DNA of 64,000 bases. Source: Halocatena halophila. GTDB lineage: Archaea; Halobacteriota; Halobacteria; Halobacteriales; Haloarculaceae. The notes under the pieces were generated by a model. That model saw nothing but the letters and a program-made list of their open reading frames with translations. It had not been told where the DNA came from and ran no database searches. Shown here one piece after another: positions 41,877-50,126 of this stretch. Position 1 is the first letter of the stretch; each line of letters begins with the position of its first letter. The position numbers and the translations under genes were made by a program. The DNA is taken from assembly GCA_027563145.1 (NCBI GenBank), contig CP071306.1, forward strand, positions 186,001 through 250,000. The letters are read 5' to 3'.

Positions 41877-42176
41877 TTACTTAAGAATTCCTTTCGACTG
41901 TGAGTGGTTCTGTTGTTGGAGTTGCTGTTGAATGTCCTCTATCTGCTCGCGGGCGTGTGAGAAGAGTCGCTCGGACTCCTCTTCGGTCTGCGTTCGAATC
42001 GATTCGAGCTCTTCTTTGAGTCTATCGGTCTGTGTTTCGGTGTCGGATTTTGGCTCCATTCCGAGACGATCTCGGGCTTTCATCTCCGCTGTCGTGGTTG
42101 ATTCGGACAGTCCGGTCACCAACTCCTCACCGGCACGTTTGATGTAGTACCAGGCATCGCTGTAGTGCTTGTTCAT
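41877..42176 (-). CDS. DUF7553-like small helical protein
   Basis: 99 residues that read as one amphipathic helical bundle: MNKHYSDAWYYIKRAGEELV at the start, then an acidic region, then heptad-like ELESIRTQTEEESERLFSHA and a Gln-rich end. The start matches my memory of the haloarchaeal DUF7553 family. No membrane segment. Probably a small structural or stress protein; function unknown. Confidence 0.75.
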   Translation of the reverse strand: MNKHYSDAWYYIKRAGEELVTGLSESTTTAEMKARDRLGMEPKSDTETQTDRLKEELESIRTQTEEESERLFSHAREQIEDIQQQLQQQNHSQSKGILK

Positions 42177-42313: not shown

Positions 42314-42667
42314 TCACTGTCCTGTTCGGTCTTTGTACTCGCTTCTGGCCGCCGTTACGGCGGAGGCAACGATCGCGAGCATATCGAACATATCGAGTTC
42401 GCGACTGCTGTCGCCGGTGGCTACATCCACGACGGATTCGTCATCGGCGTCGTCTTCGTCGGCTGTTGCTGTGGTTGCGATCGATCGGGACGCCTCCGAT
42501 TCGTCCTCGTTCGTTCCGGTTGATTCTGAGGATGAAGATTTCCGGCGGCGTAAAACCACCAGCAAACCACTCGCGACTGCGACGAGCAACAATACGGTGT
42601 GCTTTTTCGAACCGGGACCCGTCGTTCCTAGCAGTGACGTGCTGGCCAGGCGTGAACGAATTGTCAT
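42314..42667 (-). CDS. Small membrane-anchored protein with acidic Ser/Thr linker
   Basis: 117 residues: a basic N-terminus, one hydrophobic helix (about 23-40, TVLLLVAVASGLLVVL), a stop-transfer RRRKSSSSES, an acidic Ser/Thr/Asp-rich linker, and a final helix DMFDMLAIVASAVTAARSEY. I recognise no family. The opposite strand is open here as well but gives a Ser/Arg-rich translation without family character. Confidence 0.55.
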   Translation of the reverse strand: MTIRSRLASTSLLGTTGPGSKKHTVLLLVAVASGLLVVLRRRKSSSSESTGTNEDESEASRSIATTATADEDDADDESVVDVATGDSSRELDMFDMLAIVASAVTAARSEYKDRTGQ

Positions 42668-42761: not shown

Positions 42762-43265
42762 TTAGAGCAAACAACTGGCCAGAGCACTGCTTCCCGAACG
42801 AAGCAGTTCAGCAGCCAGTACGGGAACGAATGTTGCACACAACGAAAGGCCCGCCTCCCTGAACGCTGGAGAACCACTGGCCGCACCAGCCAGTCCAAGC
42901 ATCGAGCGCAACAGAAATTTCAGGGCAAACAGACCGATCGTAATCTGGACTACCGACCCGATCAATCCCGGGACTCCTATCCCGAACCATTGGGTCTGAC
43001 AGACGAGCCTCGGTACATCAATGCCGATCCACTGTGCCACACCGAGACCCACCCACAACGGACAGAAGATGACCACTGTAATTCGGATTGAACTCCACAG
43101 ATCCGCCTTTCCGTCCTGTAATGACAGTCTAATAATAGTTGACCACAGCCACCCGACGGTCCCCGACAGACCGGCCAAGAGTCCTCCACCGCCAAATGCT
43201 GGTACAATTGCTAGCAAGCCAATGATCCCACCTACGTAACTAAGTGTACGTAAATCTACGAGCAT
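42762..43265 (-). CDS. Multi-helix membrane protein, unknown function
   Basis: 167 residues with about four or five hydrophobic segments, and Gly-rich loops such as AFGGGGLLAGLSG near 24-36. The ATG at 43265 has an AT-rich promoter region shared with the divergent ATPase gene (gap 43266-43417). No family recognised. Its place next to the AAA ATPase makes it a possible partner. Confidence 0.65.
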   Translation of the reverse strand: MLVDLRTLSYVGGIIGLLAIVPAFGGGGLLAGLSGTVGWLWSTIIRLSLQDGKADLWSSIRITVVIFCPLWVGLGVAQWIGIDVPRLVCQTQWFGIGVPGLIGSVVQITIGLFALKFLLRSMLGLAGAASGSPAFREAGLSLCATFVPVLAAELLRSGSSALASCLL

Positions 43266-43385: not shown

Positions 43386-43399
43386 TGTAGTGTACTACA
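43386..43399. promoter_or_regulatory. Palindrome at the likely transcription start of the HEAT-AAA gene
   Basis: TGTAGT-GT-ACTACA: perfect 6-base arms around a 2-base centre, ending 18 bases before the start codon. A protein bound here would block initiation, so this is an operator candidate. No known motif matched. Confidence 0.45.
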
Positions 43400-43417
43400 C
43401 TATCGAGAGATCAACAC

Positions 43418-45823
43418 ATGACTGCACGTCACGGTCGCTCCAGGCAGGCACTCTCCTTTCTACTGGTCTGGCTGATTGGTGCAATTGCGGCAATCGTTAT
43501 CCTTCGAACAATCGAATCAAGCATACCGATTTCTATAAACAATGGCGATATTCACGCGGTAAGCATTTTTATCTCTGGGTGTGGAATCCTGATAGCCCAC
43601 GTCTACGTAAAATACCGAGCGACACAACGATCCCGTATTGACCGGCTCTATCACCATGGAGATCCAACAGACGTCTCGGAGGCACTTGATTCGTTAACGG
43701 CTCGCGACGATCAGGTGCGAGCAGTGGCGGCGAAGTTCGTTGCCGAACAGGTTCGCAACGCACCTGGAAAGGTCGTCAAACACGCGTCAATGGATGTCGA
43801 ATCGATCGTGACACGCATTAGTTCGTGTCTCTCCGACAGCTCCGCATCAATCGGCGAACACGCCGCCATTTCGATCAAATTCTTTGCCCGAGACTATCCT
43901 GGTGCCGTGTTGGACCACGCCGTGGGGCTCCAGCAGCTGTTGGCAACGAAAAACTCCCGCGTCCAGGCGAACGTTGCGATCGCACTCGGTAACCTCTCAG
44001 CCGCATTTCCGGAGTTTGGTTCGTCATTCGAGGCAGACTTGCTTGCACTCGCCGACGACGAAGACCCCGAAGTCAGGGCTGCAGCCTGTATCTCCCTGGT
44101 GCATCTCCCAGAGGTCGAACCCCACAAGCTCCCTGAGTTCACCGAGGATACCAGTCCTCTCGTCACAAACGCCGTCGCTGGTGCAAAGGCTATGTCGCAA
44201 GGAGATTCAAGCGTGGTCGATCCGCTGTTTCAGGGCGTTGCAATACCAGAACAATCTAACACCGCCGGTACCGACCTCAAATCCGCTCCTGCGATGGATT
44301 TCGATGCGGTCGTGGGAATGGACTCAGTAACGGAACTCCTCGGAGAACAGGTGATCGACCCACTGAACGATGAACTTCCATATGAGAAATACGGTGCTGA
44401 TCCCGTTACGGGTGTCTTGTTACATGGTCCACCCGGAACGGGAAAATCACACATCGCACGGTGTCTCGCTGGTGAACTCGGATGGGAAATACTCGAACTC
44501 GACGGAAGCCAATCATCCAGCTGGGACGAAAATCACCTTTCCGAGCTCTTCGAGCAAGCAAAACAGAATCAGCCCTGTCTCCTCATTCTCGATGAACTCG
44601 ACGCGATCGCATCGGAGCGATCGAGCACTGGTCAGGGATCGAACACGCGGCGTGTTTCCCAGCTACTGCGCTCGCTTTCGGACATCTCTTCGTCGGATGA
44701 TATCGTTGTTGTAGGAACGACCAACCGGCCTGAAGCTATTGATGAAGCAATGCTACGAACCGGTCGATTCGACACGAAGATACAGGTGCCATTACCGGAT
44801 GGGCCCACACGCCTGGCAATATTCGATCACCATCTGTCAGTTCCGATTTCTCAGTTCGACACCGAGCGATTCGAACGAGAAACTGATGGCCTCGTCGCTT
44901 CTGACATGGTCGAAATCGCACGCCGCACGACCATCAGGGCAGCCCGTCGAGAGCACAAACAGAATGTTCAAGGATCCGTCACCAATGGAGATGTGTTCGA
45001 TGCTGTGGCAACAATCTCCGATGAACGCGAGCTTACTGGTGAGTTCGTCCAGCGACCACCGAATCTCACGTTCGATGACGCGGTTGGCGCGGAATCAGTG
45101 AAAGACCGGCTACAAGAAACGATTATCCATCCACTACAACGTCCGGAGTCACACGAAGCGTACGGCGTCGGCATCGAAAATGGCGTGTTGCTCTATGGTC
45201 CTCCCGGCACGGGTAAAACCCATATTGCCCGGTGTCTCGCCGGAGAGCTCGATTGTGCGTTCGTCAGTATTCAGGCCAGTGACCTGGTGAGCAAGTGGGT
45301 CGGCGAAGGAGCACAAAACGTTGCTGCGCTGTTTCGTGAAGCCCGTGCTAGCCAGCCGTGTTTGATCTTTATTGATGAGCTCGATGCCCTTGCCACCGAT
45401 CGAGGTGCCCAACAGACGACGAGTGAACGACAGCAAGTCACACAGCTACTCACTGAACTCTCCGCCTGTCACGACGATAATGATTCCGTCATTGTCGTCG
45501 GAGCGACAAACCGAATCAGCGCGATTGACCCGGCGATGCTTCGGACGGGTCGATTCTCCCAAACCATCGAAATTGGGCCACCGGACGCACAGACGCGTGC
45601 CGCGCTATTCGAACACACGCTGGATGCCCCCACTGGTGAGATTCAGTTCGATGAACTGGGTGCCCGAACGACTGGATTCGTGGCGAGTGATATCGAACAC
45701 GTGACCGAACGCGCCGCACGCGCCGCATTACGGCGGACGGAGAACGATGAGAACCCGTCCCATGTCACACACAATGATCTACTTGATGCGATTGACGCTG
45801 TCAGAACGAGAGCAATCGAGTGA
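43418..45823 (+). CDS. Membrane-anchored HEAT-repeat protein with two Cdc48-like AAA+ domains
   Basis: 801 residues. Two membrane helices (about 12-30 and 47-65) anchor the N-terminus. A helical-repeat region (about 75-260), with QVRAVAAKFVAEQV, SRVQANVAIALGNLSAA and PEVRAAACISLVHLP, reads as HEAT/ARM repeats. Then come two AAA+ modules. The first has Walker A GPPGTGKS (337-344), Walker B LLILDELDA, sensor TTNRPEA and arginine finger MLRTGRFD (Arg447/450). The second has GPPGTGKT (594-601), pore loop SKWVGEGAQN, IFIDELDAL, GATNRISA and LRTGRF. The first pore-loop position is degenerate (SSSWDENHL). Lacking the Cdc48 N-domain, it is likely a membrane-bound unfoldase or remodeler using the HEAT region to recruit substrates. 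Confidence 0.88.
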   Translation: MTARHGRSRQALSFLLVWLIGAIAAIVILRTIESSIPISINNGDIHAVSIFISGCGILIAHVYVKYRATQRSRIDRLYHHGDPTDVSEALDSLTARDDQVRAVAAKFVAEQVRNAPGKVVKHASMDVESIVTRISSCLSDSSASIGEHAAISIKFFARDYPGAVLDHAVGLQQLLATKNSRVQANVAIALGNLSAAFPEFGSSFEADLLALADDEDPEVRAAACISLVHLPEVEPHKLPEFTEDTSPLVTNAVAGAKAMSQGDSSVVDPLFQGVAIPEQSNTAGTDLKSAPAMDFDAVVGMDSVTELLGEQVIDPLNDELPYEKYGADPVTGVLLHGPPGTGKSHIARCLAGELGWEILELDGSQSSSWDENHLSELFEQAKQNQPCLLILDELDAIASERSSTGQGSNTRRVSQLLRSLSDISSSDDIVVVGTTNRPEAIDEAMLRTGRFDTKIQVPLPDGPTRLAIFDHHLSVPISQFDTERFERETDGLVASDMVEIARRTTIRAARREHKQNVQGSVTNGDVFDAVATISDERELTGEFVQRPPNLTFDDAVGAESVKDRLQETIIHPLQRPESHEAYGVGIENGVLLYGPPGTGKTHIARCLAGELDCAFVSIQASDLVSKWVGEGAQNVAALFREARASQPCLIFIDELDALATDRGAQQTTSERQQVTQLLTELSACHDDNDSVIVVGATNRISAIDPAMLRTGRFSQTIEIGPPDAQTRAALFEHTLDAPTGEIQFDELGARTTGFVASDIEHVTERAARAALRRTENDENPSHVTHNDLLDAIDAVRTRAIE

Positions 45824-45824
45824 G

Positions 45825-46307
45825 CTATCCGCCGTCAGAATGATCGATGATAAGATTTGCCACATACGACGGACGAGGAACCTCTTCTAACACGAGTTCG
45901 GTTGAATTCGTTCCGGCCGTTTCTATTTCGACAGTTCCGACATTCAACAGTCGCTGTAGCGGGGATTGGGAATACGACGTGTTCTGAACACTCCGTAGAG
46001 AGAGCGTGTCGATCGTCAGCGAGAACATGCCCGAACGCTTGTACAGTTCCGTCTCTGTCATTAGATAAATGTGTCTGCGGTGATGAATTATCGCCACTGC
46101 ACCGCCCAGCAGCCCTCCGGCCACCACAACGATCGAGACAACCCTGAACACCGTGTCGAACTGAATAGCGCCGTATACGCCCAACGCAACGGCGATCGCT
46201 GCAGCCAACAGCCGATCTGCAATCTGCCAGTGTGTCGGTGTATCCCGCCACACAACTCTCGTCTCACTCTCCGTTTCTACCCAACTTGGTGGAGCATTGC
46301 TACTCAT
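45825..46307 (-). CDS. PH-domain (bPH2/DUF304-type) membrane protein
   Basis: 160 residues from the ATG at 46307. Two hydrophobic segments (about 29-45 and 52-70) are followed by a bacterial PH domain: the typical YLMTETELYKRSGMFSLTI, then DTLSLRSVQNTSYSQSPLQR and a strand with VGTVEIETAG. This is the usual architecture of bPH2 proteins. It converges on the AAA ATPase gene with one base between stops. Function unknown. Confidence 0.85.
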   Translation of the reverse strand: MSSNAPPSWVETESETRVVWRDTPTHWQIADRLLAAAIAVALGVYGAIQFDTVFRVVSIVVVAGGLLGGAVAIIHHRRHIYLMTETELYKRSGMFSLTIDTLSLRSVQNTSYSQSPLQRLLNVGTVEIETAGTNSTELVLEEVPRPSYVANLIIDHSDGG

Positions 46308-46380
46308 CGTACGCCTTTTCAATGCTTACAACTAATAAACATGTGACACTGGAGACTTCTCGAGACGAGAGGATGTCCGG

Positions 46381-48545: not shown

Positions 48546-50126
48546 ATGAGCGACCGTTCAGGGCTCGCCCGTCGGAATTTCTTGCGGTTGAGTAGTATTG
48601 CCGGCGCTAGTATGCTCTCTGGTGTTGGGTCGGCAACACCCGGACGGGATCCGGGGGCGAAGACGAATGAATGGGTCGTTGGGGTGAGCACGGGGGATGA
48701 TTCGCCAGGACGGATCCTCTCCGATCAGCTTTCCTCGCAGTCGGCCGTCGTCTACGAAAACGATCGAATGGGATATGCCTGTGTTACGACGCCAGCAGAT
48801 CGATCGTCGAAACGATCCCTGCTCGAAACCCTGTCGACGGCGATTGAGTCACCGGGACCGGTCAAGTATGTCGAGCAAAACTGTACGTATTGTGCACAGT
48901 ATCTTCCAAACGACCCACACTTTGAAGAGCAGTACGCAGCCACAACGATAGGTGCACCAGCTGCGTGGGATGAAACCCTCGGGAGCAACGATGTGACGAT
49001 CGCCGTGATCGATCAGGGGATGCAGTATGACCATCCCGACCTTTCACAAAACGTTGCTGACGATCCTGGTTGGGATTTCATCACAAATTCACCCGATCCG
49101 TATCCCGACGATCTGGACGCAGAGCCCCACGGCACCCACGTGGCTGGCATTGCCGGGGCTCGAACCGACAATAACAATGGGGTCACGGGCGTCGGAAACT
49201 TCCGACTCCTCTCGGCGCGGGTGCTAGACAAAGCGGGTCGTGGATCCGTGACAGATATTGCCGACGGGATTGAGTGGGCCGTCGATCGGGGTGCGGACGT
49301 GATCAACCTCTCACTGGGTGGCGGACGCTACTCACAGACGATGCAGAACGCCGTTCGTTACGCGAGTGCCCATGACGTTCTCGTGGTAGTTGCGGCCGGA
49401 AACAGCTCTGATGGAAAATCGATGTATCCGGCGTCCTACGACGAATGTGTCGCCGTTTCGGCGCTAGATCCGGATGGGACACTCTCATCGTTTTCGAACT
49501 ACGGCCCCGCAATCGAACTCGCGGCTCCCGGTCGAAACGTCGTTTCAACCTGGCCGGGAGATGGCTATCGACCGGCGTCGGGAACGTCGATGGCGACGCC
49601 GGTGGTAGCGGGCGTTGCAGGGTTGGCGCTTTCGAAATGGGATCTCACCAGCGAGCAACTGCGCAGGCAGTTAAAACGAACCGCCGTCGATATCGGTCTC
49701 TCAGAACTCGAACAGGGTGCCGGTCGCATTGACGCCGCGGGCGCGGTACATGCCAGGCCGCGTGCTGGGGTCGAAACCGCTATGGCGGAGACACCTCCAG
49801 ATTCGAGTTCGCTCAAAAATCGCGTTTCCGGCCGACTCACAGCTTTCGACGATACAGAACATTTCTCGTATTCCTGGGGAACCGACTCTCCAGAGACGAT
49901 TTCGGTCACCTTACTGGGTCCAGAGAGTGCTGATTTTGACCTCTACGTGAATGAGGGACGAACCGAGATACCCGGGACAGACGAGTACGATTACGCTGGG
50001 CGCACTAGCTCCAGCCACGAACGGGTGACGATAGAGAATCCCACAGCCAGCGTTCCCCTCCAGGTTACCGTCCATGCCTATCATGGATCGGGCTCGTTCT
50101 CGCTCGGGTTTGAGGAGAGCCGTTGA
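48546..50126 (+). CDS. Tat-exported subtilase (halolysin-like S8 serine protease)
   Basis: 526 residues. Tat signal LARRNFLRLSSIAGAS (7-22), propeptide to about 125, then the catalytic domain with Asp156 (AVIDQGMQYDHPDL), His195 (PHGTHVAGIAG), oxyanion Asn286 (AAGNSSDG) and Ser348 (SGTSMATPVVAG). After about 405 a linker leads to a C-terminal PPC-like beta domain (residues 425-525, LTAFDDTEHFSYSWGTDSPE and FDLYVNEG). This is the halolysin layout: secreted by Tat, self-processed, acting outside the cell. No CTERM anchor. Confidence 0.95.
   Translation: MSDRSGLARRNFLRLSSIAGASMLSGVGSATPGRDPGAKTNEWVVGVSTGDDSPGRILSDQLSSQSAVVYENDRMGYACVTTPADRSSKRSLLETLSTAIESPGPVKYVEQNCTYCAQYLPNDPHFEEQYAATTIGAPAAWDETLGSNDVTIAVIDQGMQYDHPDLSQNVADDPGWDFITNSPDPYPDDLDAEPHGTHVAGIAGARTDNNNGVTGVGNFRLLSARVLDKAGRGSVTDIADGIEWAVDRGADVINLSLGGGRYSQTMQNAVRYASAHDVLVVVAAGNSSDGKSMYPASYDECVAVSALDPDGTLSSFSNYGPAIELAAPGRNVVSTWPGDGYRPASGTSMATPVVAGVAGLALSKWDLTSEQLRRQLKRTAVDIGLSELEQGAGRIDAAGAVHARPRAGVETAMAETPPDSSSLKNRVSGRLTAFDDTEHFSYSWGTDSPETISVTLLGPESADFDLYVNEGRTEIPGTDEYDYAGRTSSSHERVTIENPTASVPLQVTVHAYHGSGSFSLGFEESR

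Follow-up and report, generated by a model that had tools for sequence, protein, structure and literature searches.

A predicted membrane-anchored HEAT-repeat protein with two AAA+ modules in Halocatena halophila, very likely ORF_0238 of strain YIM 93972

The window, the whole stretch of DNA analysed here, comprises 64,000 nucleotides of the Halocatena halophila genome (assembly GCA_027563145.1, contig CP071306.1, positions 186,001 to 250,000). Its subject is a gene on the forward strand at 43418–45823, encoding an 801-residue protein in which two predicted transmembrane helices and a HEAT-repeat region precede two AAA+ modules, D1 and D2. The gene is very likely ORF_0238 (halo.06695) of strain YIM 93972, its gene number being an estimate rather than an entry in a locus table. 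We think it reasonably probable that the product is a double-ring unfoldase or remodeller, tethered to the membrane and required for aerial hyphae, and that the G1067A mutation of bald mutants truncates it at residue 356. Our confidence stops just short of the halfway mark for a wider reading, that haloarchaea possess a double-ring AAA+ family separate from Cdc48 and with swappable front ends, that its membrane-HEAT version drives the formation of aerial hyphae and spores, and that the bald mutants are nulls created by a stop at W356.

Protein architecture and pore loops

The open reading frame runs uninterrupted from ATG to TGA and is complete; the single frame checked on the reverse complement of the same interval contains many stops. 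Two hydrophobic segments open the protein, residues 11–29 (43448–43504; mean Kyte–Doolittle hydropathy 2.81) and residues 45–63 (43550–43606; mean 1.76). Both are predicted transmembrane helices from hydropathy and from an AlphaFold2 model of the 801-residue chain (mean predicted local distance difference test, pLDDT, 81.1; predicted template modelling score, pTM, 0.40), in which they lie within helices 6–35 and 42–80. Arg-rich stretches flank the helix pair, MTARHGRSR on the N-terminal side and KYRATQRSRIDR after it. According to the positive-inside rule, Arg-rich ends mark the cytoplasmic side; because such ends flank the pair, it is predicted to form a hairpin, with the HEAT and AAA+ parts in the cytoplasm.

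The HEAT-repeat region covers residues 83–260 (43664–44197). Residues 1–291, scanned alone against Pfam, score 55.4 bits for HEAT_2 (cut-off 27.7) and 28.8 bits for HEAT (cut-off 23.5), and the model stacks helices over 83–260, with pLDDT of 89–96 in ten-residue blocks across 71–230 and lower values thereafter. The protein thus combines the two marks of a HEAT-repeat protein, a profile score above cut-off and stacked helices in a model. A preliminary description of this DNA, made from the letters alone, had staked its reading on this segment folding as helical repeats, and the model gives it no refutation. Ten families reach E≤1 on residues 1–291, helical-repeat families and weak unrelated ones; the Cdc48 N-domain is not among them, as had been described.

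Behind this front end lie the two AAA+ modules, each including its lid: D1 at residues 292–537 (44291–45028) and D2 at residues 548–800 (45059–45817). They are delimited by Pfam (two PF00004 AAA stretches, 257 bits), by the model and by their catalytic residues. The D1 Walker A motif, GPPGTGKS, occupies residues 337–344 (44426–44449). In each module the Walker A Lys, the Walker B Asp and Glu, the sensor-1 Asn and two arginine-finger Arg, twelve catalytic positions over both modules, show no variation across the 26/26 aligned proteins. The domain order of the preliminary description, two transmembrane helices, HEAT repeats and two AAA+ modules with intact Walker A, Walker B and arginine fingers, is therefore confirmed by hydropathy, profiles, model and alignment alike.

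A protein search returned 342 relatives at E≤0.001 among 7,996 scored, and the family figures drawn from it rest on the best 120 of the 342. The alignment holds 26 proteins including this one (P0001–P0008, P0010–P0022, P0024, P0025 and P0027–P0029); Of the three missing from this range (P0009, P0023 and P0026), low coverage excluded two, and the third was judged by eye to be very similar to P0022. At least one membrane segment is present in all 26 proteins and at least two in 22 (19-residue mean ≥1.4 within the first ~190 residues), and precomputed HEAT-type families are annotated in 23 of the 25 relatives, the exceptions being P0025 and P0029. Named members include Halocatena salina, H. pleomorpha, H. 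marina, Natronorubrum sp. A-ect3 and Natrialbaceae A-CW3, so that the search for the same domain order in other archaea proposed earlier has succeeded. Among the matches listed for 391 sampled Halobacteria genomes, near-end-to-end model matches (from position ≤37 to position ≥842; the remaining matches listed begin at ≥280) occur in five: the window's genome, its three sampled congeners and G252, which belongs to another family.

The pore loops of the two modules differ. In D2 the loop SKWVGE (residues 625–630; 45290–45307) carries an aromatic residue, as it does in 26/26 aligned proteins. The D1 equivalent, SQSSSWDENHL (44507–44539), is shortened: its aromatic position in the alignment still holds a Trp (W369), and the three residues after it are missing. 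Across the family, D1 follows the strict pattern in 10/26 proteins and has an aromatic after S-K/R in 11/26 (25 rows were classed; P0025, read separately, lacks the aromatic). The degenerate D1 and canonical D2 loops described earlier thus reflect a family-wide asymmetry. A comparable difference between D1 and D2 is known in p97.

From this asymmetry it had been proposed that one ring pulls substrate and the other mainly powers or scaffolds. D2 does appear the likelier puller, because its aromatic loop is found in 26/26 proteins vs 11/26 for D1. The family comparison thereby strengthens the proposal beyond what the window by itself would permit. The extreme D1 loop itself is only local: it occurs in 5/26 rows, all within the clade formed by this protein and the named Halocatena proteins, and takes two changes on the tree. 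The shortening is a late change of this clade and therefore cannot be what defines the family's mode of action; as a family trait it was rejected. In one relative, P0006, the D1 pore loop is D2-like (TGKIVGEG), suggesting sequence transfer between modules within a protein.

The copy in this strain stands out by its rate of change. Its branch measures 0.97 changes per column, against 0.06–0.18 for close relatives, and most core neighbours of the gene are less diverged than the gene itself. This is fast evolution in this strain with the catalytic residues retained.

Identity with ORF_0238 and the bald mutants

Strain YIM 93972 belongs to the genus that its authors call Actinarchaeum (Tang et al. 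2023, PMC10067837), and NCBI files an older spelling of that name under Halocatena. The strain has chromosomes of 2,676,592 and 844,905 bp and three plasmids (PMC10067837), and the window's genome is the YIM 93972 genome. The gene starts at C1:229418, C1 being the larger chromosome. Its number on the chromosome can be estimated at ~240 from the 2,803 genes on C1, at 242–245 from the rates of the anchors ORF_1932, 1998 and 2669, and at 199–231 with a crude gene caller, depending on its threshold. Peptidase M6 yielded nothing as a further anchor, and PhaC, ParB and DHDPS were rejected as not clean. After it, the first Cdc48-like gene is found at 457 kb, around number 479–488; on any estimate, the only Cdc48-like gene near number 238 is this one. 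The gene is taken as ORF_0238 because the genome is the same, the position matches, no other Cdc48-like gene is nearby and base 1067 is a G.

The 2023 paper names ORF_0238 as a Cdc48-like ATPase of a distinct kind and ties it to the formation of hyphae and spores (PMC10067837). The paper and the present analysis agree on genome, position, AAA+ class and the G at base 1067; they differ in that the paper speaks of a Cdc48-family ATPase and a non-synonymous change, whereas a term search of its main text finds HEAT repeats, transmembrane helices and a stop unmentioned (PMC10067837). The earlier statement that no haloarchaeal machine of this form had been described consequently holds for the membrane and HEAT parts, as far as that main text goes; the ATPase itself had very likely been named already.

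G1067A in ORF_0238 is reported as non-synonymous, is present in all three bald mutants and is the only protein-changing mutation reported in them; the other changes are a synonymous one in ORF_0964 and one upstream of ORF_2797 (PMC10067837). Counted from the ATG at 43418, base 1067 is the G at 44484, the middle base of the TGG codon for Trp356 (44483–44485), and its change to A gives TAG. From four other in-frame starts, base 1067 is T, C, T and A. If gene and start are right, G1067A is predicted to place a stop 13 residues past the Walker A lysine, which would remove the remainder of D1 and the entire D2 before either motor is complete.

A different explanation is that the AAA+ gene is a passenger: baldness would come from the change upstream of a ParB-like gene or from an uncalled lesion, and the protein would perform unrelated membrane housekeeping. 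We consider this unlikely, though it is the most serious of the rivals. It gains from the mutations of the three bald mutants, an identical set of three in each that may go back to one event, and from the occurrence of G1067A in transcriptomes of weakly affected mutants (PMC10067837). It loses from the standing of G1067A as the sole protein-changing mutation reported, a predicted stop on the present reading, from the 3.9-fold reduction of ORF_0238 protein in the bald mutants, and from the distribution of the gene, which is among 61 kept in 7/7 hypha-forming strains and missing from the study's other genomes (PMC10067837). ORF_0238 moreover sits on a tree branch specific to hypha-forming strains (PMC10067837).

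Several points weigh against the main reading. A free-intercept fit of the anchors gives gene 327, not 238; all anchors lie beyond 1.8 Mb, and this estimate was set aside as far extrapolation. At base 1067 counted from its first ATG, a Cdc48 paralogue at 601 kb (near gene 629–641) likewise has G, and the mutation would there replace Gly by Asp; three other AAA genes of this genome have G at that position from some alternative starts. The base check is thus weak alone, and it is the gene number that separates the candidates. The paper writes 'non-synonymous', not nonsense, and one shared change of the bald mutants lies upstream of a ParB-like gene (PMC10067837). The bald mutants are probably siblings, because all carry the same three mutations (PMC10067837). 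G1067A is also found in the transcriptomes of transitional mutants, except two T2 replicates, and these mutants still form weak aerial hyphae (PMC10067837). A plain equation of the stop with baldness is therefore too tidy. The architecture is present outside the genus too. Finally, the genome identity, the domains with their motifs, the module tree and the conserved neighbours are shown, but the gene number, the reading of the mutation as a stop, the hexamer, the topology, the clients and causality in differentiation all enter the account as things that we infer.

Module ancestry and relation to known AAA+ systems

In fold, the AAA+ pair resembles Cdc48. Foldseek returned 1,945 matches, of which the best 50, solved structures, are all p97/Cdc48; by sequence, a VCP-like ATPase is the top match in the PDB. 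The protein shares with Cdc48, p97 and VAT the tandem AAA modules, the active motifs and the aromatic D2 pore loop, and its model fits p97 over the AAA pair. It differs from them in that membrane helices and HEAT repeats replace the N-domain and in that its modules group with neither Cdc48 D1 nor Cdc48 D2. The earlier label 'Cdc48-like' therefore describes the fold and finds no counterpart in the trees.

When single modules are placed in a maximum-likelihood tree, the 58 that come from 29 family proteins all fall on one side of a 100/100 branch. One sequence first labelled as family, L127_736, fell among Cdc48 in this tree and was relabelled as Cdc48 in a second one, which added Escherichia coli FtsH, two FtsH modules from viral contigs, a second PAN, bacterial Cdc48-like proteins and a single-AAA protein, and from which five family proteins (P0007, P0016, P0024, P0048 and L123_761) were left out for size. 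There, 48 modules of 24 family proteins stand together (98/96; in 98% of bootstrap trees). In the module trees, composed without Vps4/CdvC and eukaryotic modules and with a very long outgroup row (own486), the family modules stand apart from Cdc48, PAN and FtsH. Forcing family D1 together with Cdc48 D1 is 360 log units worse (approximately unbiased (AU) test, p 1.3e-6), a comparison chosen post hoc, after the tree had been inspected.

Judged by these trees, the protein appears to be built as a Cdc48-type double ring and yet not to be Cdc48 by descent, because the family modules stand apart, a joint D1 clade is rejected and the curated scores lie below their cut-offs. It looks as though the double ring arose by a tandem duplication of its own and takes interchangeable front ends. 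Weighing on the other side, sequence exchange between D1 and D2, suggested by P0006, P0039 and P0042, could also draw the modules together, so a shared, older tandem with later homogenisation is a possible alternative.

The exchangeable front ends are seen in relatives such as P0036, P0037 and P0039, whose two AAA modules belong to the same group as those of this protein while their N-terminal parts are others. P0036 has a larger membrane region and HEAT_EZ (33.3 bits, cut-off 27). P0037 has a CetZ-type tubulin part, scoring 59.8 bits for Tubulin (cut-off 33) and 37.9 bits for CetZ_C (cut-off 21.6). Among the matches listed, the N-terminal parts of P0039, P0042, P0048, L126 and L125 have no Pfam name. 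HEAT-AAA membrane proteins or CetZ-AAA fusions of haloarchaea were not found in the portions consulted of the open-licence literature, including PMC2875224, PMC5070193 and PMC11188069.

Proteins in which a GTPase of the CetZ/tubulin type is fused to two AAA+ modules of the family were seen three times: in P0037 (953 residues), which was profile-scanned, and at L124:9098-11983 and L125:8061-10946, which were read by eye. In L125 (genome G354), the CetZ-AAA gene lies near a second tandem-AAA gene, with three small open reading frames in between. According to the published account, CetZ has been lost in the hypha-forming clade (PMC10067837).

That the protein is simply a fourth Cdc48 paralogue, which lost its N-domain and feeds the proteasome, is very improbable. 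The Foldseek matches and the VCP-like sequence match speak for it; they are opposed by the module trees, by a TIGR01243 score of 339 bits against a cut-off of 802.65 (803 when rounded), and by the C-terminus, since the HbYX proteasome tail is missing in 25/26 aligned proteins, including this one. Proteasome docking through such a tail, found in 1/26 only, was rejected.

Other known systems fit no better. As PAN, the protein scores 356 bits (NCBIfam cut-off 500) and lacks the HbYX tail. As FtsH, it scores 352.5 bits (NCBIfam cut-off 600), and the chain stops after the D2 lid. FtsH has an N-terminal membrane helix pair followed by a cytoplasmic AAA module. This layout, shared with other membrane-anchored AAA proteins, is predicted here as well; the difference lies in two AAA modules instead of one, a HEAT spacer and no protease domain.

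A further proposal sees in the gene an accessory conflict or defence module of the IetA type, captured by a few haloarchaea and sensing or dismantling an invader at the membrane. Its patchy distribution (near-full-length in 5/391 Halobacteria genomes among the matches listed), a likeness to the PADLOC profiles of IetA (222.6 bits), the fast evolution in this strain and the relatives with swapped N-terminal parts are all compatible with it. The proposal is nevertheless improbable, distinctly more so than a passenger gene. The likeness to IetA of IetAS is a generic AAA resemblance only: the modules are tandem here and single there, and the NCBIfam model of the anti-phage ATPase gives 214 bits against a cut-off of 510. 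No partner protease is seen nearby; the closest subtilase, 2.7 kb away, scores 32 bits for the partner model against a cut-off of 900. The gene is present and syntenic in 4/4 genus genomes, and the four neighbours tested have no PADLOC match.

Mobile elements were also considered as a home for the gene. No plasmid record covers 80% of the protein (best rows ≤68% coverage, 34–39% identity) and no phage record does (best rows ≤56% coverage, 34–39% identity), and both homes were rejected on coverage. At least 37 loci on viral contigs match, at 38% identity at best. In a scan of genome contigs with an AAA motif, the best 80 loci all match from residue ≥218 onwards, at 30–38% identity, and none shows the membrane part.

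Neighbouring genes and proposed mechanism

Three small genes lie upstream of the AAA gene and are transcribed divergently from it, on the reverse strand. The nearest (42762–43265) encodes a 167-residue hydrophobic, probably multi-span membrane protein of a nearly genus-confined family with paralogues; the second (42314–42667) a 117-residue protein with a single hydrophobic stretch and, at the C-terminal end, the conserved motif RELDMFDMLAI; and the third (41877–42176) a 99-residue DUF7553-like protein (24.2 bits, below the cut-off of 27). All three accompany the AAA gene in 4/4 genus genomes, which answers the earlier call for conserved neighbours. In genome G276 the four genes are inverted as a unit with respect to the flanking DNA, and a GNAT gene is inserted. 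Each of the four genus genomes has one match to the 117-residue family, and 15 of the remaining 387 have weaker ones. The 167-residue family occurs in 5/391 genomes, one of them with a weak match; the other four belong to the genus and have 3, 4, 4 and 6 matches.

At 4 of the 8 stretches examined around the further matches of this family, paralogues of the 167-residue protein precede a protein of 455–547 residues with hydrophobic stretches and one of 1,057–1,088 residues. Such sets were noted at L209:6373-11447, L210, L212 and L214, where nearby proteins have twin-arginine translocation (Tat)-type signals by eye. The sets are possibly a repeated, genus-specific and secretion-like gene set. Their secretion-type matches are all sub-threshold, one paralogue scoring 17.9 bits as a pilin (cut-off 26.6), and a search for PDB relatives of the large protein beside a paralogue returned none. 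For the divergent membrane gene, type IV secretion is thus a lead only, not a confirmed assignment.

A 15-base palindrome, TAGTGTACTACACTA, lies at 43388–43402, between a TATA-like TTATAA and the start codon. It was rejected as a conserved operator, since it is not kept in three congeners. On the downstream side, 45825–46322 encodes a membrane protein with a bPH_2 domain, convergent with the AAA gene, and a homologue lies beside the block in G276. The subtilase at 48546–50126 has a Tat-type start by eye and a mycosin-like score of 204.7 bits (cut-off 279), with homologues in three congener stretches.

For a membrane-tethered unfoldase or remodeller, the following mechanism is proposed. Six copies would assemble into two stacked rings on the cytoplasmic face of the membrane, where the HEAT repeats might hold a client or an adaptor. 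The pulling or threading of the client would fall to D2, whose aromatic pore loop is constant; D1 would chiefly supply ATP-driven assembly or grip in support of D2. The clients could be membrane or envelope proteins produced or re-sorted in differentiation, and the products of the three divergently transcribed genes are the first candidates. More speculatively, the oligopeptide transporter encoded by ORF_2669–2673, or its regulators, may be clients, as the mutants are bialaphos resistant (PMC10067837). In the bald mutants, the protein would break off at residue 356 through G1067A, past the Walker A motif of D1.

YIM 93972 and its relatives have, according to their authors, a Streptomyces-like cycle of hyphae and spores (PMC10067837). 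For this cycle, the only protein-changing mutation reported in the bald mutants gains a concrete predicted meaning, a stop ahead of either complete motor. The analysis places the protein at the membrane and names the likelier pulling module, a candidate for client binding and the first partner genes. The label Cdc48 would mislead, as the double ring shows no sign of having Cdc48's duplication in common with it. Together, these points offer a lead for archaeal differentiation that is testable partly on public data.

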